Assembly (NCBI GenBank): GCA_029782145.1
Contig: JAKOVH010000002.1
Coordinates: forward strand, 1-64,000
Direction: 5' to 3'
DNA from: Actinomycetes bacterium
GTDB taxonomy: Bacteria > Actinomycetota > Acidimicrobiia > Acidimicrobiales > Acidimicrobilacustridaceae
Length of the DNA stretch: 64,000 nt
Each line of letters begins with the position of its first letter. Within the stretch, counting starts at the first letter, position 1. Below are positions 8,028-27,594 of this stretch, piece by piece. The notes under the pieces were generated by a model. It saw only the letters and a program-made list of their open reading frames with translations, was not told where the DNA came from and ran no database searches. The translations under genes were made by a program, and so were the position numbers.

Positions 8028-8083
8028 CCTACGCCGAACGTGCTCGGGAGCACGGTGCTCTCCTGATCTGGGATGGGCGATGA
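8024..8083 (+). CDS. 19-codon linker ORF between the UvrD fusion and the HamA-like gene
   Basis: An ATG at 8024 overlaps the helicase stop (ATGA), and the TGA at 8081-8083 overlaps the ATG of the next gene at 8080. The peptide reads MTYAERAREHGALLIWDGR. It fills the only gap in an otherwise fully overlapping operon, so it could relay ribosomes between the genes (translational coupling), or it could be a remnant of a deleted gene. There is no evidence that the peptide itself matters. Confidence 0.35.
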   Translation: MTYAERAREHGALLIWDGR

Positions 8084-8850
8084 CAGTCAGCTTGGCGGAT
8101 CTGTTTGACGAGGCGGAGGATGAGGCGATCTACAAGTTCGTTCTCTCATCTGTGACTCCCGACTGCGATCGACCGGATCTCGTGGCTGGGTTGGCTCAGC
8201 TATTGGCCTCCAACAAGGCCGACCCACGCGTCACGGCCGACTTGCTCAATGCCGCGGGCTGGGCTCCGGCGATCGCGACTCTCCGTAGGGGCAGGGTGTC
8301 GGTTCGTCGCGGAGACTTCGGTGAGGCTCTCGCTGCCGAAGCCGCGGAGTCATTGGACGAGATGGTCGTTCCAGTCCGAAAGCTTCGGTATCAGATCGAT
8401 CCGAACCAAACCCTTCCCGGGAGTGACGTGGTCGCCTTCGTCCTCGACGACGATGGTGGGATTGATGACCTGGAGTTCATCGAGTCGAAGTACCGGACAG
8501 CCCCGCACCTCGACCTTGCGGTTGAGGCTCACGAGCAGCTCGCTGCAGATCGGGAGGGTGGGTACGCAACGACGCTCAACTTCCTAGCGCACCGCCTCAA
8601 GGAGATCGACGGAGAGCTCTACGAGTCCTTCATCGCCTTTCTGAAAGAGCGCGACGTGAAGGACTCGCGACACACGATTGTCCTCACCTTCGACGAAGAC
8701 CACTGGGACGCTTCGGTTGCGGACAACCTCGACGACCTGCCGGACCACCTGCCCGAGCTATGGCTTCGGCTGTTCCCACTCGAGGAGGCAACCAGACTGA
8801 TCGAGGACGTCTACGCAGAACTCCTCTGGGACGTGCTGGACGATGTCTGA
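8080..8850 (+). CDS. HamA-like (DUF1837-type) PD-(D/E)XK nuclease, Hachiman effector candidate
   Basis: A 256-residue acidic protein. A GSD (D116) followed by LEFIESKY (E135, K137) gives a D...ExK nuclease core, and RGDFGE around residues 77-82 may add a further acidic residue. Size, this motif order and the adjacent large helicase match HamA of the Hachiman anti-phage system, in which HamA is a nuclease released or activated by the HamB helicase to degrade DNA. The gene overlaps the helicase start by 8 nt, so the two products are likely made together. Assignment rests on motifs and pairing, not on a database search. Confidence 0.65.
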   Translation: MTVSLADLFDEAEDEAIYKFVLSSVTPDCDRPDLVAGLAQLLASNKADPRVTADLLNAAGWAPAIATLRRGRVSVRRGDFGEALAAEAAESLDEMVVPVRKLRYQIDPNQTLPGSDVVAFVLDDDGGIDDLEFIESKYRTAPHLDLAVEAHEQLAADREGGYATTLNFLAHRLKEIDGELYESFIAFLKERDVKDSRHTIVLTFDEDHWDASVADNLDDLPDHLPELWLRLFPLEEATRLIEDVYAELLWDVLDDV

Positions 8851-11800
8851 CGCCACGATCGACCTCCTCGAGCTGCCGAGGTTCCAGAACGAGCTAGCGC
8901 AGATCGGAGCGCGAGCTGCGCTCAAGGAACTCGACTCGGACTCCACCATCCGGTGGCGGTACAGAAGTGAGCGTGTCGTCCGCAACCTCACTGCAGCGGG
9001 TCAGGTCATTCTCGCCAAGGCGAAGTCCGATGAGGGCACGTTCGGCGACCAGCGATCGGCCCTGACTCTCGCACGGGCATGGGAGCACCTCGCCACCCTC
9101 GAAGAACGTGTTGATTCGGCGGCTGCGTTGCTCAACTCCGCAGTCTTCTACGAGCTCGCCGGTTACCAGGCGAACTCGACCTGCCTGGCGCGCGTGGCCG
9201 TGGACCAGGAGAGGTGGACGAGCGCACCAGCGCTCGACGGTCTGATCAGCGCGTTCCTGCAGCGCTTGTTCTTGCGCGTCACCACGCTGAGGGCACCGTT
9301 GACGGAGCTACCGCCGGTTGCATTGATAGCGACGGATGATGAGATCGAGCGACGAGCGAGTCACGCCGTGACTGCCATCGCGCTGTCCGAGGCTTCTGCC
9401 TTCTTTCTAACCGGTGATGATTCGCACATTGATGCTGCCCTGGAACATCTTGCCCTAGCGAGGCAAGGGCTAGCGCAGGTCGGTGATGCGGTTGCGTACA
9501 ACGCCGTCGTTGGGGTTGAGCACGTCCTTCCGCTCATGGTCGATCGATCCACCTGGAAGCACCTTGGCGCCGTCAGCGATTCGCCTCGATGGACGCGGTA
9601 TCTCAAAGTGCTGGCACGAGGCCTCGGGGCCGATGTGTTGGATGCCCGGTCAGTCTCAGAACTGTGGCCGTCGCAGAGGGCGGCTGTCGACGGCGGCCTG
9701 TTGACGGATGCCAGGAGCCTGGCTGTCCGCATGCCGACAAGTGCTGGTAAGACTCGAGTCGCGGAACTTGCGATCGTCCACACCCTGGTGACCCAACCTG
9801 GTTCGAAGTGCGTCTACATCGCTCCGTACAGGGCCCTCGCAAACGAGATCGAGGAGTCCTTCGCGAATCTGTTCCATGACCTTGGGTACGCCGCATCGAC
9901 GGTGCCTGGTGGCTACGACCAGGATGAGATGGGGGAGGAGCTCGCTGCGACCGACGATGTCCTCGTGCTGACTCCCGAGAAGCTCGATCTCCTCTTTCGA
10001 CTTCGGGCGGATCTCCTGGACCAAGTAGCCCTTATCGTGATCGACGAAGGTCACATCGTGTCGGACCGCCAGCGCGGGCCGAAGTTCGAGCTGTTGGTTT
10101 CTCGACTTCGCCGTCGAATACCCGAGGCGCGCTTCCTAATGATGTCGGCAGTCGTACCGGATGCGACGCTGGTCGACTTCGCTCACTGGCTCGGGGGAGA
10201 CGAGGGTCGCTCCGTGTCGAGTGACTGGCGGCCGTCGCTGTTGAAGTACGGGCGCCTTGACTGGGATGGCTCGAAGGGCACGCTTAGGTTCGTCGACGAT
10301 GACGTCATCGACGGCGGCTTGGAGTTCATTCCGAGTCTTGTCGCTCAAAGGGAGTACGCCCACGTGGCTGCCGAGACGGGGCGAATGCGCAGGCCGAAGT
10401 TCCCACGCTCGGAGAGCAAGGGGGACGTTGCAGCCGAGGTGACGTACCGCTACGCGCCACTCGGTCCCGTGCTCATCTTCGCGATGCAGACCAACTGGGC
10501 TGAGTCCACCGCCTCAGCGCTCCTCCGTCGAATTGAGTTGGCCGAACTGGTGGGCGACGCGATTCCGCAAGTGTTCGCGCTGCGGCGTGAAGGGCGTGCC
10601 CTCGCCGTTGCAGCAGAGTGGCTGGGTGAGGACCATCTCGTGACAGATCTGCTGCGTCGTGGGATCGCGTTTCACCACGGCCGCCTACCCGATGCTGTCC
10701 GGGACGCGATCGAGCAGGACTTCCGAGCCCGCCGGCTAGGGGTGCTCGTGGCGACGAGCACTCTTGCGCAGGGCGTCAACCTGCCCGTACGGACCGTTGT
10801 TGTTCACAGCTGCCGGAGCAAGGAGGAGGATGGATCAGCGCGGGTCCTTTCTGCGCGCGACTACTGGAACATCGGAGGCCGGGCTGGGCGAGCCGGCTCG
10901 GAGACCGAGGGCACGGTGATCCACATCGCCTCCTCGTCTTATGACGTCGAGGACTTCAACCGGTACGCCGCGCGCCGCACGGACGTCGAACGTGTCGAGA
11001 GTGCGCTTCATCGGATGCTCCGGGATCTGGTGGCAGAGCGCATCAGTTCCGATGCGGCATCCGAGCAGCTCGATTCGGACCTCCTCGCTCTGCTCGTTGA
11101 GGAGGACGCGGTGGCGCTTGATGATGAGTCTCTCGCCGACACCCTGTCATCGAGCCTGTTTCGGATTCAGGCCATCGATACCGACACGCCGATCGCCCCG
11201 CTTATCTCCGTGATGACTTCAACGGCTCGCCGGATCAGCACAGATGTCCCGGAGCTGGCTACTCGCCGGTTGTTCGCAGAGACCGGCCTCTCGTCGAAGA
11301 GCTGTCTGTCGATAGTCGGCCACGTGTCGGCGAACCGAGAGCTGATCGCCGCACTGTTGACGGAGGGAGACCTCGGCGACCGAGAGGTATTCGTAGATCT
11401 CTTGCTGGCTGGCTTGGCGGAGGTTCGGGAGATGGAGCCGAGGGCAGCCCTGCCGGTCGACACGCGGGAGCTGCTGTCCTCCTGGCTGGATGGAGACGGC
11501 GTAAAGGAGATCTCCGATCGGCTGGGTGTCGAGGATCCTCAGGAGTTGACTGAGTACATCGAGGACGCCTTCGCCTATCGCCTGCCGTGGGGGGCGTCCG
11601 GATATATCCGGATTGCTGCGGAGACAGCCCCTGTCGCTGTGACATCGATACTCGCGTCGAACATCGCGGGGATGATCAAGTACGGGCTGCCGTCGCCCGA
11701 GGCGGTGTGGGCGATGTCTGCTGGTGTTGCGTCTCGCCGAGCTGCTGTGGCGGTGGCCGACGAGTTTCTGCGAATGAACCTTGACCGCTCTATTGGCCGG

Positions 11801-12241
11801 TTCAGGCGTTGGCTCGGCCGGCTGGATCCCGAGTCCGTCGCCGATCGACTGGGACTTGTCGGAGCCGAATTGGAATCGACTGCCAAGGCAATCCTCCGAT
11901 CGCAACCCAATGAGTACCTGGCAAACCTGGATGGCGACGGTGCCCTGCTGCCGCTTCGGGCCACATGCCGTCCACAGCGCTCCGCGATCGAGACGGGGTT
12001 CTTCTACGAGCTCGCGCTCGGCGACAGGCTTGAGGTTCACCGAGATCGGGACAGCCGCCTGAATCGGAACGCGGTCGTCCTGACTAGCCGCAACCAGCGT
12101 CTGGGATACCTCCAGGTCGATGCTGCTCGCGCACTCGGGACTGAGCTCGACGCAGGCCTCGCGGTGGTCGCCGAGATCGTGGAGATCTCGAGTGAACCTG
12201 GGCAGCCACCCGAGGTCGTGGTCCGGGTGAGCGAGGCATGA
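8843..12241 (+). CDS. HamB-like Ski2/DEAD-family helicase, Hachiman sensor candidate
   Basis: A 1132-residue SF2 helicase. A helical N-terminal region of about 280 residues precedes MPTSAGKTR (motif I, about 296-304), APYRALANEI (Ia), VIDEGH (motif II, about 399-404), MSAVVPD (motif III), a STLAQGVNLPVRTV motif V and IGGRAGRAG (motif VI, about 677-685). Another 400 residues follow with no motif I recognise. The domain order, the long tail and tight coupling to a PD-(D/E)XK gene fit HamB, which is thought to sense invading or damaged DNA and control HamA. It ends the five-gene run. A stand-alone Ski2-like repair helicase is the alternative. Confidence 0.7.
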   Translation: MSDATIDLLELPRFQNELAQIGARAALKELDSDSTIRWRYRSERVVRNLTAAGQVILAKAKSDEGTFGDQRSALTLARAWEHLATLEERVDSAAALLNSAVFYELAGYQANSTCLARVAVDQERWTSAPALDGLISAFLQRLFLRVTTLRAPLTELPPVALIATDDEIERRASHAVTAIALSEASAFFLTGDDSHIDAALEHLALARQGLAQVGDAVAYNAVVGVEHVLPLMVDRSTWKHLGAVSDSPRWTRYLKVLARGLGADVLDARSVSELWPSQRAAVDGGLLTDARSLAVRMPTSAGKTRVAELAIVHTLVTQPGSKCVYIAPYRALANEIEESFANLFHDLGYAASTVPGGYDQDEMGEELAATDDVLVLTPEKLDLLFRLRADLLDQVALIVIDEGHIVSDRQRGPKFELLVSRLRRRIPEARFLMMSAVVPDATLVDFAHWLGGDEGRSVSSDWRPSLLKYGRLDWDGSKGTLRFVDDDVIDGGLEFIPSLVAQREYAHVAAETGRMRRPKFPRSESKGDVAAEVTYRYAPLGPVLIFAMQTNWAESTASALLRRIELAELVGDAIPQVFALRREGRALAVAAEWLGEDHLVTDLLRRGIAFHHGRLPDAVRDAIEQDFRARRLGVLVATSTLAQGVNLPVRTVVVHSCRSKEEDGSARVLSARDYWNIGGRAGRAGSETEGTVIHIASSSYDVEDFNRYAARRTDVERVESALHRMLRDLVAERISSDAASEQLDSDLLALLVEEDAVALDDESLADTLSSSLFRIQAIDTDTPIAPLISVMTSTARRISTDVPELATRRLFAETGLSSKSCLSIVGHVSANRELIAALLTEGDLGDREVFVDLLLAGLAEVREMEPRAALPVDTRELLSSWLDGDGVKEISDRLGVEDPQELTEYIEDAFAYRLPWGASGYIRIAAETAPVAVTSILASNIAGMIKYGLPSPEAVWAMSAGVASRRAAVAVADEFLRMNLDRSIGRFRRWLGRLDPESVADRLGLVGAELESTAKAILRSQPNEYLANLDGDGALLPLRATCRPQRSAIETGFFYELALGDRLEVHRDRDSRLNRNAVVLTSRNQRLGYLQVDAARALGTELDAGLAVVAEIVEISSEPGQPPEVVVRVSEA

Positions 12242-12313: not shown

Positions 12314-12363
12314 GGGCGGGAGTGCGCGTGGGGTAATGGTGCAAGTCCCCCCTCCGACACCAC
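12314..12363 (+). repeat. Attachment-site copy A (left end of the tyrosine-integrase element)
   Basis: The core CAAGTCCCCCCTCCGACAC at 12342-12360 is repeated exactly at 21346-21364. The flank to the left (GGGAGT, then GCGTGGGGTAA) recurs with few changes at 40.95 kb. The core ends like a tRNA 3' end (CCGACACCA), but no folding tRNA is present. Outer GGAG/CTCC and inner GGGG/CCCC pairs could form a stem-loop. Confidence 0.65.
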
Positions 12364-12365
12364 GA

Positions 12366-12390
12366 AAGCCCAGGTCACAGACCTGGGCTT
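12366..12390. terminator. Strong hairpin beside att A, probable bidirectional terminator
   Basis: AAGCCCAGGTC (12366-12376) and GACCTGGGCTT (12380-12390) form an 11-bp perfect stem with a 3-nt loop, followed by CGCTCGTTTTC on the plus strand. It lies between the end of the minus-strand integrase and the att core and could stop transcription from either side. Confidence 0.55.
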
Positions 12391-12408
12391 CGCTCGTTTT
12401 CGGCCTGT

Positions 12409-12426
12409 TGGTCACAGAATGGTCAC
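12409..12426 (+). repeat. Left arm-type integrase site
   Basis: TGGTCACAGAATGGTCAC contains two TGGTCAC repeats. The right end of the element has the same arrangement at 21205-21222 with one mismatch. Paired short direct repeats inside both ends, next to the core, are what lambda-type integrases use as arm-binding sites. Confidence 0.5.
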
Positions 12427-12433
12427 GGGACCA

Positions 12434-13597
12434 TCACGACCCGCCGAAGATGAGGCCGGCGACCTGTTCGGCGGCGTCGCGTTGCATGCCCGCCGTGACG
12501 TGGCTGTAGGTGCCGAGGGTGATGCCGATGGTGGCGTGCCCGAGACGCTCCTGCACGACCTTGGGATGCACGCCGGCCTGTAGCGCCAGCGTCGCCCACG
12601 TGTGGCGCAGCCCGTGCAGCGTGAGCGCTGGTAGCTCCCACCGGGCGATGCGCCGTTGGAACTCTCGGGACACCCGCTCGGGGTGCAGTGGCTCACCGTC
12701 GACCTTGCAGAACACGAGGTCGTGGTCGTGCCAGCCGGCGCCGATGAGCAGCCGCTCCTCGAGCTGGCTTCGACGGTGGTCCCGAAGCGCGGTGACAGTG
12801 CCGGCATCGAGGTCGACCGAGCGGACGCCCTGTGCCGTCTTGGGCGTCCCGAACGCCGTTGCGTGCTTCACCGCGATGACTGTCTGACGGACCGACGCCC
12901 GTCCGGCGTCGAGGTCGAGGTCGGACCAGCGCAGCCCGAGCCCCTCACCGCGGCGCATGCCGGTGGTGGCGAGCAGCACCCACAGGACGTAGTACCGGTC
13001 CCCGTAGCCCTTAGAGCGGCCCAGGAAGTCGGCCAGCACCGCCGGGGGCCAGGTCGTCATCGTGGCTGTGTTCGTTGTCGGCCTCGGTGGGTCGGCGGCG
13101 TCGGCCGGGTTTCGTGTGAGCCGGCCCCACCGCACCGCGTCCTTGAACGCCCGGTGCAGGACCGTGTGCACGTAGCGCACGGTGCGGGGCGACAGGCCGT
13201 TGCCGGCGTCGTGGCCTCGGTGGCCGCTGGCGAGCAGCTCGGCGTAGAGCCGGTTCAAGGTGCCGCCGTCGACCGCCTGCAACGCCACGTCGCCGATGCG
13301 TGGCGCGACGTGCAGGTTCAGGTTCCGGCTGTAGCTGTGATGCGTGGAGGGGCGCACCGTCGGCTCGATGATGGCGAGCCACTCGCCCAGGTAGCCCGCG
13401 AGCGTCTGCTTCGTCGGCGCCACGTAGCCGCCGGTGCGGGCCTCGTGCTTCACGCGGTCGAGCTCGTCGAGCGCTTCGGCCTTCGTGGCGAACCCCCGGC
13501 GCCGTAGCTGCTTGCGTGGAGCGCCCGGGGGAGTGAGGTCGAGCACGAACATCCACTTCCCCGATGCGTCCCGCTTCACGCTGCCTTCGCGAGACAT
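12434..13597 (-). CDS. Tyrosine recombinase / phage-type integrase
   Basis: A 387-residue integrase that would catalyse site-specific insertion and excision of the 9-kb element. An N-terminal arm-binding region (about 10-60) and a SAM-like core-binding domain (about 65-165) precede the catalytic domain. TGMRRGEG gives the first arginine (about R215), a lysine lies near 253, HGLRHTW gives H328/R331, LGHATI gives H354 and the nucleophile is Y364 in GTYSHV. The ATG at 13597 overlaps the TGA of the upstream gene; an upstream in-frame start would add 22 residues with no similarity. The gene sits at the end of the element beside att A, the usual place for an integrase. Confidence 0.93.
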   Translation of the reverse strand: MSREGSVKRDASGKWMFVLDLTPPGAPRKQLRRRGFATKAEALDELDRVKHEARTGGYVAPTKQTLAGYLGEWLAIIEPTVRPSTHHSYSRNLNLHVAPRIGDVALQAVDGGTLNRLYAELLASGHRGHDAGNGLSPRTVRYVHTVLHRAFKDAVRWGRLTRNPADAADPPRPTTNTATMTTWPPAVLADFLGRSKGYGDRYYVLWVLLATTGMRRGEGLGLRWSDLDLDAGRASVRQTVIAVKHATAFGTPKTAQGVRSVDLDAGTVTALRDHRRSQLEERLLIGAGWHDHDLVFCKVDGEPLHPERVSREFQRRIARWELPALTLHGLRHTWATLALQAGVHPKVVQERLGHATIGITLGTYSHVTAGMQRDAAEQVAGLIFGGS

Positions 13598-14163
13598 CAG
13601 ACGGTCCCCTTCCCCTTCGTCGCTGGCGGGAGGTAGCCGCGTTCTCGCGCGAGGCTGACCCATCGGCTCGCGGTCCGATGCGACACCGGCTCGAAGCGAT
13701 GCATGACGGCCTCGGTCCCGCGTGGGTGGCCCGAGCGGTACACCTCAGCTACCTCGCGCAGATGCTCGTCGGTCACGGCCCATCGCCGGCCAGTGCGTCT
13801 CGGCGAAGCCAGCGCGTCCCACTGCACCCGCTGGCCCAGCTCATCGGCAATCCGAGCGTCCAGCAGCGTCGCACACGCGTCGACCAGGTCCTGCACAGGC
13901 AGGTCCTCGCGTAGCCGGCTCTGATTCAGAGAGCGCCCACCGCTCCGGCGGCGCAGCACCAGCTCGTCGACCGCGTAGATGCCGTCCTCGACGACCAGCG
14001 AAAGCGAGACGTCGAGGCCGTGCTGCTCCAACGTCGCCACCGCTCGCACCCGCTCGGGAACTCGTAGCTCTCCGAGCTGCACTACGGCCGTGCGTTCCGG
14101 CACTGAGAACGAGACCGCCACCGGAAGCGGTATCTGTGTGTTCCTCTTCGGGCCCATAGACAC
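13597..14163 (-). CDS. Element regulatory protein with C-terminal helix-turn-helix
   Basis: A 188-residue protein, coupled to the integrase by a TGATG overlap. The C-terminal half (about 125-180) reads TDEHLREVAEVYRSG and then VSHRTASRWVSLARERGYLP, a helix-turn-helix common in actinobacterial integrated elements. The N-terminal half shows beta-rich segments and no motif I know. It may control integrase expression or element copy number; this is inference. GTG at 14163 and ATG at 14157 are both possible starts, and neither has a clear ribosome-binding site. Confidence 0.7.
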   Translation of the reverse strand: MSMGPKRNTQIPLPVAVSFSVPERTAVVQLGELRVPERVRAVATLEQHGLDVSLSLVVEDGIYAVDELVLRRRSGGRSLNQSRLREDLPVQDLVDACATLLDARIADELGQRVQWDALASPRRTGRRWAVTDEHLREVAEVYRSGHPRGTEAVMHRFEPVSHRTASRWVSLARERGYLPPATKGKGTV

Positions 14164-14218
14164 AGCTTAGACATTCGGCGGACTCATGACCTAGTCAGGA
14201 CGCCACGCCATCCCCATT
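14164..14218. promoter_or_regulatory. Divergent promoter region of the element
   Basis: The 55 bp between the leftward integrase module and the rightward replication module must hold start signals for both strands. It is AT-richer than its surroundings. A TAGACAT stretch and a CATTATGG start context are visible, but no clean -35/-10 pair. The start codons lie close to the possible promoters, so leaderless transcripts are plausible. Confidence 0.35.
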
Positions 14219-14434
14219 ATGGCGAACATGAAGCCACTACCCGAACCCAACGAGCGCCCGACCGTGAGCGTGCCCGAAGCGGGCGAGTTCCTCGGTATCG
14301 GACGTGCCACCGCCTACGAGGCCGCCAAGGCTGGCGACCTCCCAACCATCCGGCTCGGCAAGCGCCTAGTCGTTCCGACCGCGGCCCTGCGTCGCATGCT
14401 CGGCCTTGACACTCGGGCAGGTGAGGCCGCGTGA
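14219..14434 (+). CDS. AlpA/Xis-type excisionase-like DNA-binding protein
   Basis: A 71-residue protein of the MerR-like HTH_17 family: VSVPEAGEFLGIGRATAYEA forms the winged helix-turn-helix, followed by LPTIRLGKRLVVPTAALRRML. Such proteins direct excision (Xis) or activate integrase genes (AlpA). It starts the rightward operon and overlaps the next gene by GTGA. The position opposite the integrase gene fits an excision or control role. Confidence 0.8.
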   Translation: MANMKPLPEPNERPTVSVPEAGEFLGIGRATAYEAAKAGDLPTIRLGKRLVVPTAALRRMLGLDTRAGEAA

Positions 14435-14793
14435 GTCGCCCGACGCGAGGAGGCCGGCCCGTGCCTGGGCCGGCCCCTCACCACAACGACGTCATCACCC
14501 ACGACGACGCTGCCGATGCTACCGGCTGCATGCAGTGCCGGGTCGCCGACCTACTCGGCGAACCCAGCCCGCAGCATGTCGGGCCCGCAGCCGCCAGCGA
14601 CGACCTGCTTGCCCTGGTCGTCCGACTCGCTGACCGGCTGCTCGACCTCGAGCGCCGGCTCGCCGCTGCCGGCATCGCCAACGTCGAGCCGTTGGAGCGG
14701 CAGCGAAAGCGAGGGCGTCGGCTGCTCGAGGAGTCGAGCCCGGTCGCCCGGTACGTCGCCGGCCGGCAGCGGGTGCTCGGCGGCCCCCGGTGA
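14431..14793 (+). CDS. Hypothetical satellite protein, 120 aa
   Basis: The GTG at 14431 overlaps the AlpA-like stop, and its own TGA overlaps the next GTG. Residues 30-40 contain a CMQC pair, then a helical stretch rich in leucine and arginine (LALVVRLADRLLDLERRLAA, a possible coiled coil) and a basic end. No family is recognised. Coupling on both sides supports it as a real gene of the element's replication operon. Confidence 0.6.
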   Translation: MSRPTRGGRPVPGPAPHHNDVITHDDAADATGCMQCRVADLLGEPSPQHVGPAAASDDLLALVVRLADRLLDLERRLAAAGIANVEPLERQRKRGRRLLEESSPVARYVAGRQRVLGGPR

Positions 14794-14918
14794 GCCGCCC
14801 AGGTCGATGCGGACACGACCGTGCACGCCGGCGCTGCATGTACTGCCGCGCCGGCGTGACGCCGGCCGACTACTGGCTCGCCATCTACCTGCTGCGACGC
14901 ATCGGAGGCCGACGATGA
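14790..14918 (+). CDS. Small zinc-ribbon-like protein, 42 aa
   Basis: GTG at 14790 overlaps the previous stop and TGA ends at 14918. The peptide has C7-x-H9 and C16-x2-C19 (CGHD, then RRCMYC), a likely zinc site, followed by a short hydrophobic helix (YWLAIYLLRR) and a basic tail. Overlap with its neighbour and the ordered cysteines support translation. A six-codon ORF (14915-14935) links it to the primase gene. Its function is unknown. Confidence 0.5.
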   Translation: MSRPGRCGHDRARRRCMYCRAGVTPADYWLAIYLLRRIGGRR

Positions 14919-14935
14919 GTCTCGTGGACCGCTGA

Positions 14936-16327
14936 GTGATGGTCGAACCGACACCACTGCGCCGGAACGACACCGGCCGCGCCGACCGCCACACCGACGC
15001 CGGCAACGCCGTGGCACTCGTCGAGCTGCACGGCCACCGGTTCCGGTGGGTGCCGTTGTGGGAACGCTGGCTCGTCTACGACGGCCGCCGGTGGCGGCAC
15101 GACACGCTCGGGGAAGTCATGCAGGCCGCCAAGGCCGTAGCCCAGCACCGATGGGACGAGGCGCTCGCAATGGAGCACGGCACCGCCCGCGACAAGGCCC
15201 TCGGATGGGCACGCCAGTGCGAGAACGCCGGCCGGCTCGACGCGATGGTGCGCCTTGCCCGCAGCGAGCCAGGCGTGGCCATCGACCCCGACGCCCTCGA
15301 CGCCGACCCGTGGCTGTTGAACTGCGGCAACGGCACCCTCGACCTCCGCAACGGGGAGCTGTACGCCCACGACCCAGCCGACCTCATCACCAAGGTGTGC
15401 GCCGCTGACTACGACCCCGATGCCGTCGCCCCGACCTGGGATCGGTTCATGCGCGAGGTGCAACCCGACCCCGACATGCGCGACTACCTCCGCCGAGCGG
15501 TCGGCTACAGCCTCACCGGCGCTCAGGACGAGCAGTGCATCTTCGTCAGCTGCGGCACTGGCGCCAACGGCAAGAGCGTGTGGACCGGCACCCTGCGCCG
15601 CGTGCTCGGCGACTACGCCCGCCAGGCGTCGGCCGACATTCTCGTCAACGCCGAAGCGCACCCCACCGGCGTCGCTGACCTCCAAGGCGCCCGGTTCGTG
15701 GTCGCCTCCGAGCTTGACGATGGCCGCCGACTGGCCGAAGCGACCGTGAAGGCCCTCACCGGCGGCGATCGGGTCAAGGCCCGGTTCATGCGTCAGGACT
15801 TCTTCGAGTTCGACCCGTCCCACACGCTATGGCTCGCCACGAACCACCGGCCCATCATCACCGGCACCGACCACGGCATCTGGCGCCGGGTGAAGCTCAT
15901 TCCCTGGGCGGTGACCATCGCGGAGACCGACCAGGACCGCCAGCTCGCCGACCGGCTCTCGCTCGAGCTGCCCGGAGTGCTCGCCTGGGCGGTCCGAGGT
16001 TGCGCCGAGTGGACCATGCGAGGCCTCGCCGACCCCGACACCGTGCGAGACGCCACCGCCGACTACCGCGCCGAGATGGACATGCTCGGCACGTTCCTCG
16101 ACGACGCATGCATCGCCGACCCCGACGCCCGAGTGCAAGCCAGCGACCTCTACACGGCCTACACCCGCTGGTGCGACGACAACGGCGAACGAGCCGTCAC
16201 GCAACGCCGGCTCGGCCAGGCTCTGACCGAGCGCGGGTTCGACCGCCGCAAGTACGGACCGGCCCGCCGCTGGCACTGGTTCGGCATCACTGTGGGCTCG
16301 TTCGACGTGTCACAGGTGAACCCATGA
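14936..16327 (+). CDS. D5/P4-type primase-helicase (SF3 helicase)
   Basis: A 463-residue replication protein. The first 180 residues match the D5_N region (LNCGNGTLDLRNGEL). The SF3 helicase follows: Walker A GTGANGKSVW (about 207-216), Walker B-like FVVASELDDGRRL, and the sensor segment LWLATNHRPII. A C-terminal winged-helix region holds YTAYTRWCDDNGERAVTQRR. The GTG at 14936 is followed at once by ATG, and either may be used. In phages and satellites this enzyme opens the origin and drives autonomous replication, so the element probably replicates after excision. Confidence 0.9.
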   Translation: MMVEPTPLRRNDTGRADRHTDAGNAVALVELHGHRFRWVPLWERWLVYDGRRWRHDTLGEVMQAAKAVAQHRWDEALAMEHGTARDKALGWARQCENAGRLDAMVRLARSEPGVAIDPDALDADPWLLNCGNGTLDLRNGELYAHDPADLITKVCAADYDPDAVAPTWDRFMREVQPDPDMRDYLRRAVGYSLTGAQDEQCIFVSCGTGANGKSVWTGTLRRVLGDYARQASADILVNAEAHPTGVADLQGARFVVASELDDGRRLAEATVKALTGGDRVKARFMRQDFFEFDPSHTLWLATNHRPIITGTDHGIWRRVKLIPWAVTIAETDQDRQLADRLSLELPGVLAWAVRGCAEWTMRGLADPDTVRDATADYRAEMDMLGTFLDDACIADPDARVQASDLYTAYTRWCDDNGERAVTQRRLGQALTERGFDRRKYGPARRWHWFGITVGSFDVSQVNP

Positions 16328-16584
16328 ACCCTTCAGAACCCTTCTCACCTATTAGCGCCCATACGCGCACGCACGCGGGGGAATGCCGGAATGAGGGTCC
16401 GAAGGGTTCCAAGGGTTCCGAATGGGTTCACCCCGGCGACTCCACCGGTGTCCTGCTCACCATCGCCGAGGCCCGGCTGCTGCTCAGCCTGTGCCACCTG
16501 GCCGTGCCGGAGACGCCCGCCCAGCTCGAGGTCGCCGCCCGTCTCTCGGTGCTGCTCGCCCTCGCCACGAAGGAGAACCCGTGA
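16324..16584 (+). CDS. Hypothetical satellite protein, 86 aa
   Basis: The ATG overlaps the primase stop (ATGA), and the TGA overlaps the next GTG. The first 35 residues are polar (GPKGSKGSE). The rest is helical and leucine-rich (LLTIAEARLLLSLCHLAV, then AARLSVLLALATKENP). No known motif. The chain of overlaps makes expression with the primase likely. Confidence 0.55.
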   Translation: MNPSEPFSPISAHTRTHAGECRNEGPKGSKGSEWVHPGDSTGVLLTIAEARLLLSLCHLAVPETPAQLEVAARLSVLLALATKENP

Positions 16585-16751
16585 CCGCTCGAAGCCACAC
16601 CCGCAGCCGCCGCAACCTACGCCGCCGAGCCCGAGCCCGAGCGTGGGCCAAGGCGCTAAAGGTCGCACGCCGGCGGGGCGTCGACCCGTGGGGCGCGTAC
16701 CTGCGCTACCAGAAGCCACGGGGCGCTCGCCGCGACGGGGCCGGCGAGTGA
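16581..16751 (+). CDS. Small basic protein, 56 aa
   Basis: GTG at 16581 overlaps the preceding stop. The product is highly basic (RSRRNLRRRARARAWAKALK) and ends with RGVDPWGAYLRYQKPRG. It could bind nucleic acid, but no family is recognised. It is the last gene before a long stretch without clear coding sequence. Confidence 0.5.
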   Translation: MTARSHTRSRRNLRRRARARAWAKALKVARRRGVDPWGAYLRYQKPRGARRDGAGE

Positions 16752-17713
16752 ATGCCGGCGGGGGTCAACACCGGGGCCGGGGTTGCTTGGGGGTGGGGGG
16801 ACCATGCGAGGGCGAGAGGTCCCCGGCCCTACTGCCCCGGCCGGTGGGGTCGGGTGGGTGTGGGCCCCCGACGCCGGATGGTGGCAGCGGACGCCCCGCC
16901 CCTGCCCGTGCCCGGCCACCCCGCACCACCGGTCGCGGCGTGCCAGCTCGTCGCACCACGACGACCGAGCACTCGTCGACCACCCGACGCCCGACCCGGG
17001 TGGTCGGGTCGAGGCTGCCCGGCACCTCGCCCCATGCCCGAGAGGTCAGGCACCGACCATCGCAGTCCAGCGTGTCGGCATCGCGGCTTGTGTCACTCGC
17101 TCGCTCAACGCAACGCCGATGCTCAGCCACAGGCCGACACCAGCCCCACCGACCGCCGCCCGCTGTCGCACCGCAGCGCCGGTCCCCGCTCGCACCCACC
17201 CGCGACGGGGTGGGCAGGGGGGAGGGGTCGCGACGTGAACCGCGACCCCGGCCGCCAGCCACGCCTTCCCTTTCTCGCTGTGCGTGTCAGGTACGAGCCG
17301 CCGACCCCCGGAACCTGTGAGGCGGTGGATGCGACATCGCTCCCCACCGTCTTGTGGTCCACGTCCAGGAATGTCGGATCCGACATCATCGGACACCGTG
17401 GCCTCGGCCTCGCGTTGGAGTGACGGCCCAGCTGCGGGAGGCGGTGGACGCATGGCAATCGTTGACTGGCCCAATGACGTGACCCATCATGGGCGCCAGC
17501 GAGTCGTGGACGCCGCCCCGGAGGGGCCGCTGAAGCGGCGAGGCAACGCCCGACGAGGGAGCGCCGACCGTCACGCCCGACGAGGGCCAGCGGAAGTCAA
17601 GAGTCGCCAACGCCCGACGAGGGAGCGGCGGCCTTTCCCCCGTTTCCCGGCCGCGGGCGCCGACCTTGCTTCGTCGCACACCAGCCGTGGCCCGTTCGAG
17701 AGGACGACCCCCC
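16752..17713. other. 962-bp region without a recognisable gene, upstream of the capsid gene
   Basis: Several open frames cross this very GC-rich stretch on both strands. None has a good start, a domain or balanced composition; they are rich in Pro, Arg, Ser and Gly, as random GC-rich frames are. It may be regulatory or packaging DNA, or decayed genes such as an HNH nuclease or small terminase. The right end holds three copies of a 14-bp repeat and a short GCCGC/GCGGC hairpin at 17527-17540. Confidence 0.4.
17546..17623 (+). repeat. Three direct repeats of ACGCCCGACGAGGG
   Basis: Exact copies of the 14-mer lie at 17546-17559, 17573-17586 and 17610-17623, spaced 27 and 37 bp apart. They end about 90 bp before the capsid gene start. 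Regular short repeats here could be activator-binding sites for late transcription, or packaging or replication sites. Confidence 0.55.
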
Positions 17714-19189
17714 ATGTCCGTCGACCCCATCCATGACCTCGAGGCGCGTGAGGCGGCGCTCGTCGACGAGCTGCGCCGCTATGGCAACGCTCCGACGACC
17801 ACCGCGAGCCAGGACGCCCGCGCCGACAACGCCATCGTCGAGCTCGAAGCGGTCCGCGCCGAGCTCGACACCTGCCGGGCCCGTGAGGTCCGCCGCGCCG
17901 AGCTGCGCCGCCCCGGTGGCGTGCCGCCCCGGCTCACCGCAGGGAACGTGTCGCACCCCGACGGCTCGTCGTTCAACGTGAACCGCCGCTCCGACCCGTT
18001 CGACGTCACCGACCTCGAGCGGGTGGACCCCGACACCCGCCTGCGGGAGACCCGCAGCCGAGCCCTCGACGTGATCGAGCACCGCACCCGCGGCGATCAC
18101 GTCACCGACGACGCGCTGCGTCACGCCATCGGCCTGCTCGAAGGGTGGGGCGGCGACGTGGCCCGCGACACCGCCGAGCTGATCTTGGCGACCGGCACCG
18201 ACGCCTACCAGCGGGCGTTCCGCGAGCACCTCAAGGACCCGGCGGCGCTCGGCCCCCGCATGGAGCTGGAACGTATGACGGGTGAGCTGCACTCGCGTAC
18301 CGCCGTGGCGATGGCCGGTGTGCAGGGCGCCCTGCACCTGCCCTACCAGCTCGACCCGACGATCCTGTTGACGAACGGCGGCGTTGTGAACCCGGTCCGC
18401 CAGGTGTTCCGCAACGTCAAGATCAGCGGCACGAACACATGGCAGCAGCCGACCACGTCCGGCGTGCTCGCCGGCCTGGTGGGCGAGTCTGCCCAGTTCA
18501 CCGACCAGTCCCCGACGTTCACCAGCACCGCGATCAGCTGCTACAAGGCGGCGTCGTTCGCGTTCGGGTCGTGGGAGGCGCTCGACGACTCCGGGCTGGC
18601 CGACGACTTGCCGATGATGTTCGCCGACGCCAAGGAACGCATGGAGGCCGGCTACTTCACCACCGGCCTCGGACCCAGCTACAACCAGCCCCAGGGCGTC
18701 ATCACGTTCGCCTCCAACGCCACCTCCATCGTCGCCGGGACGTCGGGTGCGGCGAACTCGGCCGACCTCACCGCCGCCGACATCTACAACGTGCGGAAGT
18801 CGCTGAGCCCCCGCTGGCGTCCTGACGCGGTGTGGCTGGCGTCGCTCGACACCAGCTACGCCATCCGCCAGCTCGGCACGTCGACCAACTACCACGCGTT
18901 CTCACTCGACGTCACCGCCGCCGACGGGGCGCTGCAACTGCTCGGCCGGCCGTTCTACGAGGTGTCCAACATGGCCACCAGCATCGTCAGCGGCAGCACG
19001 GATTTCATCCTTTGGCACGGCTCCCCGCAAGGGTTCGTGACCGTGGACCGGGTGGGCATGGTGCTGCAGTATGCGCCGATCATCACGTCGGGGTCGAAGT
19101 TCCCGACCGGTGAGTCCGGCTGGTTCGCGTGGTGGCGTTTCGGGAGTGGCGGGCTCGTTCAGGACTCAGCCCGAATGTTGAAGCTGTAG
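17714..19189 (+). CDS. HK97-family phage major capsid protein
   Basis: A 491-residue protein. The N-terminal 50 residues (LEAREAALVDEL, then IVELEAVRAELDTCRAREVRRAEL) are coiled-coil-like, as in the scaffolding delta domain. The rest has the HK97 fold signature: VVNPVRQVFRNVKISGTNTW, then KAASFAFGSWEALDDSG, then GEGG-like turns, NYHAFSLDV and GRPFYEVSNM near the C-terminus. The ATG at 17714 has an AGAGGA ribosome-binding site. No portal, protease, terminase or tail gene accompanies it. A lone capsid gene next to a primase suggests a satellite that builds its own capsid but borrows other phage parts. Confidence 0.85.
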   Translation: MSVDPIHDLEAREAALVDELRRYGNAPTTTASQDARADNAIVELEAVRAELDTCRAREVRRAELRRPGGVPPRLTAGNVSHPDGSSFNVNRRSDPFDVTDLERVDPDTRLRETRSRALDVIEHRTRGDHVTDDALRHAIGLLEGWGGDVARDTAELILATGTDAYQRAFREHLKDPAALGPRMELERMTGELHSRTAVAMAGVQGALHLPYQLDPTILLTNGGVVNPVRQVFRNVKISGTNTWQQPTTSGVLAGLVGESAQFTDQSPTFTSTAISCYKAASFAFGSWEALDDSGLADDLPMMFADAKERMEAGYFTTGLGPSYNQPQGVITFASNATSIVAGTSGAANSADLTAADIYNVRKSLSPRWRPDAVWLASLDTSYAIRQLGTSTNYHAFSLDVTAADGALQLLGRPFYEVSNMATSIVSGSTDFILWHGSPQGFVTVDRVGMVLQYAPIITSGSKFPTGESGWFAWWRFGSGGLVQDSARMLKL

Positions 19190-19330
19190 GTCCGCGGGGT
19201 GCCCGGCCGGCTTCCTCGGGCGAGGGTCACGGCCGGGTACCCCGTCGAGCGGTAGGCGTCAACGGCCACGGCCGAAGGGTGCGGGAGGGACCTCCTAGCC
19301 CGATGACCGCCCCTGCGTCTCCGCTCACAA

Positions 19331-19380
19331 CGCCAGCCCCCTTCGGAGCCCACCCTGCTCGGGCTCCGGGGGCGCTGGCG
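19331..19380. terminator. Long GC-rich hairpin after the capsid gene
   Basis: The left arm starts CGCCAGC and ends CGGAGCCC; the right arm starts GGGCTCCG and ends GCTGGCG. They pair over about 20 positions with an 8-10 nt loop. The hairpin sits between the capsid and WhiB genes. No T-run follows, so it could be a terminator or a structured RNA element. Confidence 0.5.
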
Positions 19381-19417
19381 CTTCCCGTTTCGTCGCTCAA
19401 CACAGAACAGGCACAGC

Positions 19418-19738
19418 GTGGACGACCTCGAGCACGACGTCTGGTTTTCGCTCATGACCGTCACTGGTCCGGCCGGCTGGGCGGAGCTGTTCACCCGTCC
19501 CGCATGGCACGCCCGGGCGGCGTGTCGTGGCGCCGGGCCCGGCCAGTGGTTCCCGGAGCGGGGCGAGGACGTGCGGCCCGCCAAGGCAGTGTGCGCCGGC
19601 TGCTCTGTGCGCTCGCAGTGCGCCCAGGACGCTCAGGAGGTTGGCCGTTACGCAATCGGGATATGGGGCGGGCTGTCAGACAGGGAACGCCGCAAACTGC
19701 GCCGCCGTCGGGCGCTCGAGGGTGAGGAGGCGGCGTGA
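19418..19738 (+). CDS. WhiB-family iron-sulfur transcription factor
   Basis: A 106-residue protein with the four WhiB cysteines: C36 (AACRG), C59 and C62 (VCAGC), and C68 (SQCAQ). The GIWGG turn is at 81-85, followed by a basic tail (RERRKLRRRR) that binds DNA. WhiB proteins carry a [4Fe-4S] cluster and act with the primary sigma factor; actinophages use them to take over host promoters. GTG at 19418 is taken as the start, with ATG 19454 possible. Its place after the capsid gene fits a control role within the satellite. Confidence 0.88.
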   Translation: MDDLEHDVWFSLMTVTGPAGWAELFTRPAWHARAACRGAGPGQWFPERGEDVRPAKAVCAGCSVRSQCAQDAQEVGRYAIGIWGGLSDRERRKLRRRRALEGEEAA

Positions 19739-19780
19739 CCTGAGCGCCTGGCGATCGACGCCTGCCGCCCGACCGCCCTT

Positions 19781-19903
19781 CTACATCCGTGCTGCCACCT
19801 GTGGCCGGACCGACGCCAGGTAGACGATCACAACGATCACGGCCAGGCCGAGCACGCCAGCGATCGCACCTAGCCTCCCTCTGCTGGTCCTCGAGGTGGG
19901 CAC
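19781..19903 (-). CDS. Small single-span membrane protein, 40 aa
   Basis: A minus-strand GTG at 19903 is preceded by GGGGG. The product has a basic start (PTSRTSRGR), one hydrophobic span of about 18 residues (GAIAGVLGLAVIVVIVYL) and a short tail. The composition is typical of an inner-membrane peptide. It overlaps the opposite-strand methyltransferase remnant, which is probably dead. Function unknown; a holin- or exclusion-like role is only a guess. Confidence 0.4.
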   Translation of the reverse strand: MPTSRTSRGRLGAIAGVLGLAVIVVIVYLASVRPQVAARM

Positions 19904-20255
19904 GTCGACCCCCGGGCGGGCACTCCACGCGGCGAGGCCGGTGCAGGCGTGGACGAAGGACGCGCGCCAGGCCGAGAAGGCCGAGCAACAGGCCAAGGCG
20001 TGGGACCTGTGGCTCGACTGCCTGAGCGAGCACGACGTGGCTGACGCCATTGACGTGCCGCGGACCACCGTGCAGTCGTGGCTTGACGAACAGCGCAAGT
20101 CTGCGGATTTCGTCAGGGCGCCGGAGTCGCGGCAGCACTTCGACGTGTGGAACTTCGCTCCCGCACGGGACGACAGCGCCGGATCGACGTCCTACTTCGG
20201 GGTCATGCCGCCCCATCTCCGCTCCGAACGACCTCGATACCGTCCGCGGCGCTGA
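19896..20255 (+). pseudogene. Internal fragment of an HTH/DNA-methyltransferase gene
   Basis: The frame contains LWLDCLSEHDVADAIDVPRT (a helix-turn-helix), then KSADFVRAPESRQHFDVWNF and SYFGVMPPHL. This series occurs in ParB-HTH-methyltransferase proteins of phages and conjugative elements just before the catalytic DPFxGxGTT block. Here the frame ends at 20255, before any SAM-binding motif, and the N-terminal ParB part is missing. It is therefore a remnant, missing both ends. Confidence 0.6.
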
Positions 20256-20271
20256 GCGTGGCGCCTCGGCA

Positions 20272-20559
20272 TCATTCCAAGGGGTCGAGCCCAGCCGACG
20301 CCACCTCTGCTACGACCCGCAACGCGGTCCGCAGCATGTGCGCTTCGGCCTCGTGCTGGCACTGCCCGTCGTCGTAGTCGCCGGTGCGTGTCCGCCAGGT
20401 GCTGCGGCCGTGCTCGTCGCCGCACACGATGCACGGGACGTAACGGTCGCCGTCGAGCATCGCCCGGATGGCGCGGCACACCCGGTCGAATGCGTCCGGG
20501 TCGACCTTTCGCATCTCATCGAGGAGCCGGGCGCCCTCGGTCGTGTCTAGGTTGGTCAT
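20272..20559 (-). CDS. Small CxxC protein, 95 aa
   Basis: The ATG at 20559 has AGGAG eight bases upstream. The product starts MTNLDTTEGARLL and is mostly helical. It has CIVCGDEHG near residue 45 with a later CQHEAEAH, which could together bind a metal. The gene runs opposite to the capsid-WhiB genes. No family is recognised. The good ribosome-binding site and balanced composition support it over the overlapping frames. Confidence 0.55.
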   Translation of the reverse strand: MTNLDTTEGARLLDEMRKVDPDAFDRVCRAIRAMLDGDRYVPCIVCGDEHGRSTWRTRTGDYDDGQCQHEAEAHMLRTALRVVAEVASAGLDPLE

Positions 20560-21204
20560 GTCGATCACGCTCCTGTCGTGTTCGGCCAGGCCCGGGGCTG
20601 TTGACGCAGCGCCCGGGCCACCTCGATTGTCGAGCGGGATCGTAGGCGCTGAGCATGCCGAGCGCCGGATCGCTGACCACGACCCGCAGGGCGACGTGCG
20701 GCAGACCGGGCCGTCCCGGGCGGCCCTGTTTGGGGTCAGGGCCGCCCGGTGAGCCGGCACGGCGGAGCGCCGACCGGCTAATCATGCCGCGCGTCATCAG
20801 CCGGCGGGAATAGCACTATTGGCTCAACGCGATGCGATCGGCACACTCAACCTCGTCCGCTGGGCGGTCGATACAGCAATGCCTGACTCCCACCCTCAGG
20901 CCTCTGTCCCGGACGCCCCACTGCGCTCGACGCGGTGGGGCGTCCGACGTTCCATGCCGGGCGCGGTGAGGCCCGCCGCCCACGCCACCCCCCTCTGGCG
21001 GGCCGGCGGGCCTCTCCGACGAGGCCCCGGCAGCGGAACCGGGGCCTCGCGGGATACGGGACCGGCGAGGGTCCCGCGACACCGCCCCGTGGCGGATGGG
21101 GCGGCACGCGTGAACCTAGGACGGCGCGCGCCGAAGTCGACAGGGCCGATGGTCCCTCGTCGCCACACGTCGGGTCGAGGTGGCTCGGCTGCTTAGCCGC
21201 CTAC
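20560..21204. other. 645-bp region without a gene, with strong hairpins
   Basis: No credible coding sequence is seen between the small CxxC gene and the right arm site. Two perfect hairpins stand out. GGACGCCCCA (20911-20920) pairs with TGGGGCGTCC (20936-20945), and CGAGGCCCCGG (21020-21030) pairs with CCGGGGCCTCG (21039-21049). They may be terminators or part of the element's replication or packaging origin. Confidence 0.5.
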
Positions 21205-21222
21205 TGGTCACAGATTGGTCAC
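21205..21222 (+). repeat. Right arm-type integrase site
   Basis: TGGTCACAGATTGGTCAC matches the left arm (12409-12426) at 17 of 18 positions in the same orientation. A further inverted copy, ACTCGTGACC, follows at 21225-21234. It lies about 125 bp inside the right core. Confidence 0.5.
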
Positions 21223-22986
21223 AGACTCGTGACCACCGGGCGAGACAGGACGACATCGACTTCGTGTATCACTGGTCGCGAATGCCCGCTGAGCAGGGGA
21301 TTCATAGACGCATCGCCACAGGCCGTCATGGGTGTCGTATGAGTTCAAGTCCCCCCTCCGACACGATCTAACGCACACCGGAAGCGCCTCGACTCGTACG
21401 AGGCGCTTCGTCGCGTCAAAGGTCAGTTCGAGGCCCAGTTCGTTGTACAGGCGGGCCTTCGCGTCGGGGTCAGCGCCGGCCAGGACGTCGCTGATCGGGC
21501 CAACTGCGTCGATGAGCGCTCGGATGTCGGCGTCATCGAGGACGCTGCTTGGCTGGGCGGCCGCGAGCTCTCGCTCGGCGGCGATCTTGGCGGCCCGCAG
21601 CTGCTGAATGCGAGGTCCAAGCGTGTCAGCGGGCGAGCCTTGCTCGATTGCCGCGACGAGGCGGTCGATCTTCTCGTTGGCATCCTCGAGAGCTCGGCGG
21701 GCAGCCTCGGCACGGGCGTCGTCGGTCTCGGTCGGCCCCTGTGCCTCGTTCAGTGCGGCGATGGTCGCGTCGAGGTTGGCCGGGTCGAAGACGGTAGCGA
21801 TCCACTCGTCGAGGGCGGGCACGATCTGGTCCTCGCGGAGGTAGATCGTGGCGGGGTGGTCGACCTTGTTGGCGAGGGCGTACTCGGCGGGCACCCGGCA
21901 CCGGTAGTGGGCCCGGTCATGGTTCCAGTTGCCTTGCATGCGAGCGCCGCAGGCCCCGCAGCGGAGCCGCCCGCGCAGTAGGTAGGTGTTCTTGCGGCGG
22001 TTGACCCGACGGGCCGCACGCTGTGCCCCGGCACCGGCGAGCTGTTGGGCTCGTGCGAAGACCTCGGGGTCGATGATCGGCTCGTGCGTGGTGTCCGTCG
22101 ACCAGATCCACTCATCGGACGAGTTCCAGCGGAGCTTTGTCTCGTGGCCGAGGGCGACGTCCTCGACGTCGATGAGGGTCTCGTCGCGCCGTTGCTTGTT
22201 CCATACTTCGCGGCCGGTGTAGCGAGGGTTGCGCAGGATGGCTCGCACGGCGCTCTTGGACCAGGCGATACCGGAGCGGTGCGAGTTGCGCTTCGGGTCG
22301 GCAGCGCTCGGGCACGGCACGCCGTCGCGGGTGAGACCCTCGGCGATGGCGTAGAGGCCGGAGTCGTGGAGGTACTCGGTGTAGATCCGCTCGACGATCG
22401 GAGCGGTGGAGGGGTCGGGCTCGAGGTAGTGGAGGCGCTGGCCGTTGGCCGCCTTGCCCGGGTTGGGGTGGAGGCCGCCGTCAGCGAGGCGGTAGCCGTA
22501 GGGCGGACGACCGCCGAGGAAGCGGCCCTCGGCGGCCTGGCTCGCCATCGCCGAACGGACCCGGATCTTGATGCGAGTGCGCTCGCCCTTCGACATGCCG
22601 CCGTAGAGCGCCATCACCATGTCGTGGGCGTCCGAGCCGGGGTCGACCGCACCACCGACCTCGGGCACCCACAACTCCACGCCGTAGTGGGTGAGCACCG
22701 GGAACGTGAGCCCGAACTGGTTGCCATAGAACGCTCGAGCCGGTTCGCCGATCACGATCGCGTCGAACCCACGGTCGGGACGCTTCAGGTCGCCGAGCAG
22801 CCGGGCCGCCTCGGGCCGGCGCTTCCACGGCAGCGATCGAGACTGGCCGATGTCGAAGTACTCGGTAACGACCTCACCGGTCGCCCCGATGAGCTGCGTC
22901 GCTCGTGAGAGCTGCCATGCCTTCGAGCTCTCCGGATCCTGCTGGTCCTCGGTCGAGACCCTGCCGTAGAACGCGAATCGCTTCAT
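21208..22986 (-). CDS. Large serine recombinase (integrase/resolvase family)
   Basis: A 592-residue site-specific recombinase. The catalytic serine is S11 in FYGRVSTEDQQ. The resolvase domain runs to about 150 (GGMSKGERTRIKIRVR helix). The Recombinase domain follows with GGRPPYGYR, and a zinc ribbon with CGACGARM and RCRVPAEY sits near 350-380. A coiled-coil segment follows (about 420-480). Such enzymes insert and excise actinobacterial mobile elements without accessory factors. The last 46 or so codons lie beyond att core B, inside the neighbouring element, so the present C-terminus is probably a hybrid made by insertion. Its start overlaps an 11-codon ORF coupled to the small gene upstream. 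Confidence 0.9.
   Translation of the reverse strand: MKRFAFYGRVSTEDQQDPESSKAWQLSRATQLIGATGEVVTEYFDIGQSRSLPWKRRPEAARLLGDLKRPDRGFDAIVIGEPARAFYGNQFGLTFPVLTHYGVELWVPEVGGAVDPGSDAHDMVMALYGGMSKGERTRIKIRVRSAMASQAAEGRFLGGRPPYGYRLADGGLHPNPGKAANGQRLHYLEPDPSTAPIVERIYTEYLHDSGLYAIAEGLTRDGVPCPSAADPKRNSHRSGIAWSKSAVRAILRNPRYTGREVWNKQRRDETLIDVEDVALGHETKLRWNSSDEWIWSTDTTHEPIIDPEVFARAQQLAGAGAQRAARRVNRRKNTYLLRGRLRCGACGARMQGNWNHDRAHYRCRVPAEYALANKVDHPATIYLREDQIVPALDEWIATVFDPANLDATIAALNEAQGPTETDDARAEAARRALEDANEKIDRLVAAIEQGSPADTLGPRIQQLRAAKIAAERELAAAQPSSVLDDADIRALIDAVGPISDVLAGADPDAKARLYNELGLELTFDATKRLVRVEALPVCVRSCRRGDLNSYDTHDGLWRCVYESPAQRAFATSDTRSRCRPVSPGGHESVTNL
21346..21364 (+). repeat. Attachment-site copy B (right end of the tyrosine-integrase element)
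   Basis: Exact 19-bp copy of the att A core. The preceding GAGTT extends it to GAGTTCAAGTCC, which looks like a tRNA T-loop. Read on the minus strand, it lies inside the 3' part of the serine recombinase gene and encodes CRRGDLNS, a peptide typical of tRNA 3' ends read in antisense. Confidence 0.7.
21381..21409. terminator. Hairpin beside att B
   Basis: GAAGCGCCTCG (21381-21391) and CGAGGCGCTTC (21399-21409) form a perfect 11-bp stem with a 7-nt loop. It mirrors the hairpin beside att A and lies in the last part of the recombinase frame, where it may mark the ancestral gene end. Confidence 0.45.
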
Positions 22987-27200: not shown

Positions 27201-27594
27201 CCATGTCGCGTGTACGTGATGGCGGTCGGGTCGCTCCGTTCCAGCGGGACGGGGGAGTCCGCCCTCTTCTCAGCCGGTTTCCGCCGTGTGTGACCGCTGG
27301 CCACACACCTTCCGGGTCTTCGTGAAACCCACGCCAGCCGACCCGTCGACCGGTATGGTCTCTACGCAGTCGGGAGGCTCCTGAGCCGCCCGATCAGCGG
27401 CTCACCAGCCGTAGCCCTCGGGTGGAGGCGCGCAGTCCACCCCACGTGTACCGGTTCCAGCCGACGATCCGTGGGGTACCCAAGTGACGCACGTTCGACG
27501 AACACCCGACTATGCTCACGAACAATTGTTCGATCCGATTGCCGTCGAGCGTGGTCCGCTCGACGCCGAGTTCCATGGATGTAGTTTGACGCAC
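27201..27594 (+). promoter_or_regulatory. Promoter and operator region of the restriction-modification cargo
   Basis: No gene is seen in this 394-bp gap, unless the methyltransferase starts upstream at GTG 27484. A TGAGCCG/CGGCTCA hairpin lies near 27380-27403. A -10-like TATGCT at 27511-27516 is followed by the perfect palindrome CGAACAATTGTTCG at 27519-27532, an AT-rich island in GC-rich DNA. A palindrome at the transcription start suggests repressor control, as in C-protein or methyltransferase autoregulation. Confidence 0.45.

Follow-up and report, generated by a model that had tools for sequence, protein, structure and literature searches.

A candidate phage satellite with a lone capsid gene at a tRNA-Leu(GAG) attachment site in an Acidimicrobiales genome

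Introduction

The usual definition of a satellite element rests on what it borrows. The element studied here is 9,023 bp long, carries a single phage capsid gene and lies at positions 12342-21364 of the window, i.e. the first 64,000 nucleotides of contig JAKOVH010000002.1 (assembly GCA_029782145.1) from a bacterium of the order Acidimicrobiales. With a probability of about 0.57, it was interpreted as a phage-satellite-like integrative element reliant on a helper phage.

Several described systems are close to this layout. Mycobacterium elements with an integrase and a major capsid protein (MCP), including phiRv1 and phiRv2, are candidate phage-inducible chromosomal islands (PICIs) whose helper use is undemonstrated (PMC10654092). 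In functional terms, a PICI is an element that a helper phage induces and packages. In SaPIbov5, the single capsid-protein homologue Ccm needs the helper capsid protein and alters the helper shell (PMC8569155). Capsid-forming PICIs encode an MCP, protease, portal, head-tail connectors and terminase, and the Streptomyces satellites MulchRoom and MiniFlayer have their own MCP, portal, terminase, scaffold and head-to-tail adapter (PMC10690885). No published report joining Acidimicrobiia and phage satellites was found in the open-access literature. The present locus is a phage-like region with integration machinery and an MCP, which is how the candidate PICIs were delimited (PMC10654092), although no close sequence kinship with them was found. 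As with Ccm, its capsid-protein homologue is the only shell protein that the element encodes. Assignment to the capsid-forming PICIs was rejected because only the MCP was found and the protease, portal, connectors and terminase are missing.

Results

The ends of the element were set by an exact direct repeat. The first-pass annotation had claimed bounding cores of 19 bp, and these were recovered at both ends (19/19 bp identical, both reading CAAGTCCCCCCTCCGACAC) by repeat and tRNA comparison. The attachment features, all from repeat searches, were as follows.

12342..12360, + strand: left attachment core, identical to the 3' end of tRNA-Leu(GAG)
21346..21364, + strand: right attachment core
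12409..12418, + strand: arm-type site TGGTCACAGA, left arm
21205..21225, + strand: two tandem arm-type sites TGGTCACAGA, right arm

An 18-bp part of the core, with up to three mismatches allowed, was observed four times against 0.1 in shuffles. No tRNA gene was found in the 64-kb window (the start of contig C13 in our numbering), and the intact tRNA-Leu is therefore on another contig: a tRNA-Leu(GAG) with the same terminal sequence was located in the host genome at G000:C21:418412-418496, approximately 7 kb from the end of contig C21. The motif TGGTCACAGA has exactly three copies in 64 kb (12409, 21205 and 21216), against 0.1 expected. Because these copies sit only at the element ends, they fix the boundaries independently of the cores; their placement just inside both ends is, on sequence grounds, the pattern of tyrosine integrase arm-type sites. 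Cores matching the tRNA 3' end, an adjacent integrase and arm sites were thus all found, as in an integrative element at tRNA-Leu(GAG). Two further core-like sequences, each with one mismatch in 18 bp, were seen at window positions 40977-40994 and 42419-42436 and suggest a tandem array of islands or scars behind the tRNA-Leu gene.

The capsid gene is the only virion gene that was recognized within these boundaries.

17714..19189, + strand: HK97-fold MCP, 491 aa (PF05065, 1.1e-24)

The gene is full-length, without stop or frameshift, and its product aligned over its length to phage MCPs. Residues 89-489 matched the capsid protein of phage Mycofy1 (1.6e-44), to which the fold was also matched by structure comparison (9.7e-19). 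A region of approximately 195 aa is kept at the N-terminus that is not in the structured mature shell of relatives. The modelled mature shell chains of Mycofy1 have approximately 290 residues, compared with 543 in the protein, and judging by these chain lengths the relatives probably shed the N-terminal part on maturation. The element has no protease to remove it.

When all six frames were searched with hidden Markov models (HMMs), the element showed no gene for a portal, terminase, prohead protease, connector or tail; it accordingly lacks the portal, large terminase, protease and tail genes that a complete tailed prophage should have. Remnants were sought with HMMs built from 53 loci and covering the large terminase (TerL), portal, protease, connectors, major tail protein, tape measure and others. 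The best matches outside real genes (E of about 0.013-0.02 over about 25 models) were taken as chance. The host genome, which is 98% complete, gave no match to the PF04860 portal, the PF03354 TerL ATPase or the PF04586 prohead protease, family models that leave room for very divergent forms, and its sole PF05065 MCP is that of the element. The same portal, TerL, protease and MCP families were detected in control genomes that have prophages. Since no portal, TerL ATPase or protease match was obtained genome-wide, a resident helper prophage of the PF04860-portal type is unlikely, and no helper prophage was found in the same genome by that portal family. The absence of portal, terminase and tail genes had been noted in the first-pass annotation; the six-frame search bears this out and adds the prohead protease to the list. 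Its gene calls (integrase, excisionase-like HTH_17, D5_N, WhiB and an HK97 major capsid gene, here Phage_capsid) were likewise confirmed with Pfam and PHROGs.

The integration and replication genes lie to the left of the capsid gene. They are listed below with the open reading frames (ORFs) between them.

12434..13597, - strand: tyrosine integrase (PF00589, 4.1e-22), with the ATG at 13597 as likely start and the longest ORF extending to 13663
13597..14163, - strand: 188-aa putative regulator overlapping the integrase, weakly DUF6214-like (8e-4)
14219..14434, + strand: excisionase-like HTH_17 protein (PF12728, 2.1e-9; excisionase PHROG phrog_66, 1e-4)
14431..14793, + strand: 120-aa protein (ORF), stop/start overlap with the excisionase-like gene
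14936..16327, + strand: D5-type helicase, 463 aa (PF08706, D5_N, 5.7e-36)
16324..16584, + strand: 86-aa ORF overlapping the helicase stop (ATGA)
16581..16751, + strand: 56-aa basic ORF overlapping the 86-aa ORF
16752..17713, no strand: spacer of approximately 960 bp without coding signal (coding and remnant searches)

The assignment of the integrase to the tRNA-Leu site is supported by locus L125, which belongs to a different genus within the order and has a 51% identical integrase adjoining an intact tRNA-Leu(GAG). The C-terminus of the 188-aa regulator resembles a protein next to the integrase of locus L078 (36% over 53 residues). Integrases that share about half of their residues with that of the element were seen in L119 and L125 with other cargo and without an MCP; the cargo of L119 consists of D5 and helix-turn-helix (HTH) genes, and no phage genes were seen in L125. 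The integrase module thus appears, from sequence comparison, to be common to different elements. From the excisionase-like gene to position 16751 the genes are close-packed, several with start/stop overlaps or nearly abutting. Phage primase profiles of approximately 770-855 residues aligned with the helicase solely in their C-terminal helicase part (positions 332-756 of 772 in phrog_6088), which indicates that the N-terminal primase part is missing. No terminase, portal or protease remnant was detected in the spacer by the six-frame HMM search. Short direct repeats (CAACGCCCGACGAGGGAGCG and variants) were observed at 17544 and 17608 (region 17541-17640), just upstream of the MCP gene.

MCP relatives were gathered from 84,980 species genomes (48 loci), IMG/VR and phage records. 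No close relative of the element was found in these collections or among the 397 genomes of the order, and MCP identity did not exceed 37%. Most MCP relatives sit in ordinary TerL-portal-protease-MCP modules; the closest of these from named genomes are L016-L018 (Nocardiopsis, Streptosporangiaceae), complete and 32-37% identical. A distinct minority has no portal and TerL beside the MCP, some of these loci being cut by contig ends. Portal-less MCP integrative elements were found at L023, L025, L038, L039, L045, L057, L063 and L202, and at L078 in the same order as the present element. Their hosts include Pseudonocardia, Mycobacteriaceae and Gordonia; L057 comes from a metagenome-assembled genome of Acidobacteriota and L202 from a viral contig. 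On the MCP tree, at least six changes are required to account for the portal-less label, which means repeated gain or loss of this state. Among the portal-tested host genomes of portal-less loci, PF04860 was found only in those of L023 and L030, on other contigs.

The gene content of this minority varies. The Pseudonocardia loci L023/L024 have an integrase, HTH regulator, HTH_17 protein, AAA_25 ATPase, MCP and protease, and AAA_25-type ATPases are carried by several of the homologous MCP elements examined, compared with the D5-type helicase here. A tape-measure gene follows the MCP gene in L025, L038, L039, L045, L063 and L202, several of which also have an integrase, protease or AAA_25 ATPase. 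The MCP-tape-measure pairs were observed at L025:9683-12941, L038:9710-15886, L039:9794 onward, L045:9611-15557, L063:9410-14947 and L202:7439-13043, and the tape-measure proteins belong to PF10145 or PF20155 where scanned. In the Mycobacteriaceae and Gordonia elements and in L202, the neighbourhood of the pair yielded no portal, TerL or major tail gene. The proteins of 1,100-1,500 residues that follow the MCPs of the mycobacterial elements were considered as MCP fusions; this was ruled out, as Pfam identified them as tape-measure proteins.

Within the order, L078 (genome G361, 96% complete) has an integrase at tRNA-Val, a regulator, an HTH ORF, DnaB, a glycosyltransferase and an MCP (26% identity), followed by a possible tail-like ORF and then the contig end. 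No portal, TerL or protease match was found in G361. On a 4.7-kb viral contig (L282:1-4731), a related D5 helicase is separated from an MCP (PF05065, 2.8e-78) by two small ORFs, and no TerL or portal lies between helicase and MCP. Another layout is found at L014:1-10332 (genome G145; identical MCP contig L036), with D5 helicase, HNH, TerL, portal, protease, MCP and connectors. L014, limited by contig ends on both sides, is a possible capsid-forming PICI.

Three ORFs lie between the MCP gene and the right arm sites.

19418..19738, + strand: WhiB-family protein (PF02467, 5.7e-18)
19896..20255, + strand: 119-aa HTH ORF, with sub-significant small-terminase PHROGs (phrog_3218, E=0.016; phrog_4151, E=0.003)
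20272..20760, - strand: ORF without assigned function (ORF, domain scan)

A small terminase is not claimed for ORF 19896-20255, given that the phrog_3218 match reached only E=0.016. By eye it had been suspected to be a truncated methyltransferase, and no such match was obtained in phage records.

A Hachiman-like pair lies immediately left of the element at window positions 8080-12241 (HamA, 9.5e-18; HamB, 1.7e-119). An island to the right (window 27484-34936) has a type II methyltransferase, a DRT8-like reverse transcriptase (2.6e-137) and an OLD/GajA-like ATPase. Two similar serine recombinases abut the same tRNA-Leu core, one in the window (21208-22986, - strand) and one on contig G000:C21 (L011:6478-8121). 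The frame of the former crosses the right core and ends inside the element. Serine and tyrosine recombinase families seem to share this one tRNA site.

Discussion

Interpretation as a satellite-like element is the reading best supported by the intact boundaries and arm sites, the uninterrupted and partly overlapping genes, the lack of remnants and the independent portal-less MCP elements, and it is put forward here as probable. A helper phage entering from outside would induce excision, the D5 helicase would drive replication of the element and the MCP would be made late. The MCP might then co-assemble with the helper capsid protein and change the shell, as SaPIbov5 Ccm does, or form a whole shell that replaces the helper capsid. 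Helper protease, portal, terminase and tail would complete a particle carrying the approximately 9-kb element. The first-pass annotation had also proposed a satellite, one that builds its own shell. The satellite part of that proposal is retained as probable, and the own shell is not the sole possible mechanism: with neither protease nor portal in the element, the MCP is at least as likely to be a Ccm-like subunit that remodels the capsid, and on the same basis co-assembly is slightly favoured. Its suggestion that an actinobacterial form with WhiB would be new is tempered by the integrase-plus-capsid elements already published (PMC10654092); none of the other lone-capsid elements examined showed a WhiB.

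Several observations weigh against a satellite. No helper is known. The element is a single copy with no close relative, and conservation of its gene set as a unit is thus not shown; conservation in the other lone-capsid elements examined was likewise not seen for WhiB and the two 3' ORFs. In a tree of 53 rows, the MCP sits on a very long branch (2.45) within a supported set with L016-L018, these nearest relatives belonging to complete phages. The AlphaFold model of the MCP is weak (16-row alignment, mean predicted local distance difference test score 64). Finally, the gap before the MCP gene corresponds in position to the HNH, TerL, portal and protease genes of L014, which is the pattern that a deletion would produce.

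Some of these points are what would be expected of a compacted defective prophage, i.e. an ordinary temperate siphophage in which large clean deletions removed the genes for packaging, head and tail, and those for integration, replication and the capsid are for now retained. The nearest MCPs are in full phage head modules, the long branch and the gap of approximately 960 bp fit decay, and L014, in the same order, shows the gene order expected before deletion (D5 helicase, HNH, TerL, portal, protease, MCP); a deletion in an element like L014/L036 could yield the present layout. A prophage of the order (L121) also has a 46% identical integrase together with WhiB. This origin is nevertheless considered rather unlikely, as no remnant of any lost gene was found, the integrase, excisionase-like, helicase and MCP genes are intact together with the cores and arm sites, and an MCP without portal recurs in unrelated elements.

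The defence genes on both sides (Hachiman to the left, the DRT8-like and OLD/GajA-like genes to the right) raise another explanation, in which the capsid gene is anti-phage cargo that poisons capsids and the element, itself unpackaged, belongs to a defence-rich tRNA island. Capsid remodelling is known to divert helper capsid protein (PMC8569155), and in L119 and L125 this integrase family mobilizes other cargo that includes no MCP. The defence genes are, however, outside the cores, in neighbouring elements, and interference alone does not account for a replication helicase, which makes this explanation improbable. A domesticated encapsulin-like shell with no role in mobility is more improbable still. 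The HK97 fold is common to encapsulins, which appear among the weaker structural matches, but the protein belongs by sequence to the phage capsid family only (PF05065; Mycofy1), retains the phage N-terminal region and is encoded inside an att-bounded element with no recognizable cargo enzyme.

The MCP and the tape-measure protein are the two that set head and tail size. It is tentatively proposed, as a doubtful extension of the satellite interpretation, that there is an actinobacterial satellite class moving with only size-setting virion proteins: the MCP alone here, MCP and protease in Pseudonocardia, MCP and tape-measure protein in Mycobacterium and Gordonia. These would be swapped or mixed into the particle of an external helper and redirect the dimensions of its head (and tail), with portal, terminase and other tail parts coming from the helper. 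With one capsid gene, in a genome where no other phage head gene was detected, the element would stand between elements that contribute no shell protein and the capsid-forming PICIs. It would also add to the known range of integrase-plus-capsid elements an order for which no published report was found. Portal-less MCP elements recur across actinobacteria, in several cases together with a tape-measure gene, which suggests that the published mycobacterial candidates fit into a wider pattern. Why the MCP is the structural gene kept is a testable question.

Among the systems compared, L078 is of the same order and has a matching succession of genes: the integrase, a regulator with a related C-terminus, an excisionase-like HTH protein, a replicative helicase and then the MCP. 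It differs in that its helicase is DnaB rather than D5, that a glycosyltransferase precedes the MCP and that the possible tail-like ORF follows. The Mycobacterium candidate PICIs (PMC10654092) are similarly small and defined by integrase and MCP; those with tyrosine integrases are at tRNA genes and some have replication proteins. The present element is in another bacterial order, has a D5-type helicase and WhiB, and is without a prohead protease. Capsid-forming PICIs and MulchRoom/MiniFlayer are also satellites with their own MCP, the latter two in actinobacterial hosts, but have a portal, terminase and other genes where only an MCP is found here. In SaPIbov5 (PMC8569155), Ccm has the HK97 fold, loses its N-terminal domain during assembly, is the only satellite protein in the particle and redirects the helper shell; that element is staphylococcal, with proven encapsidation and a known helper, whereas the present one is known from its genes alone.

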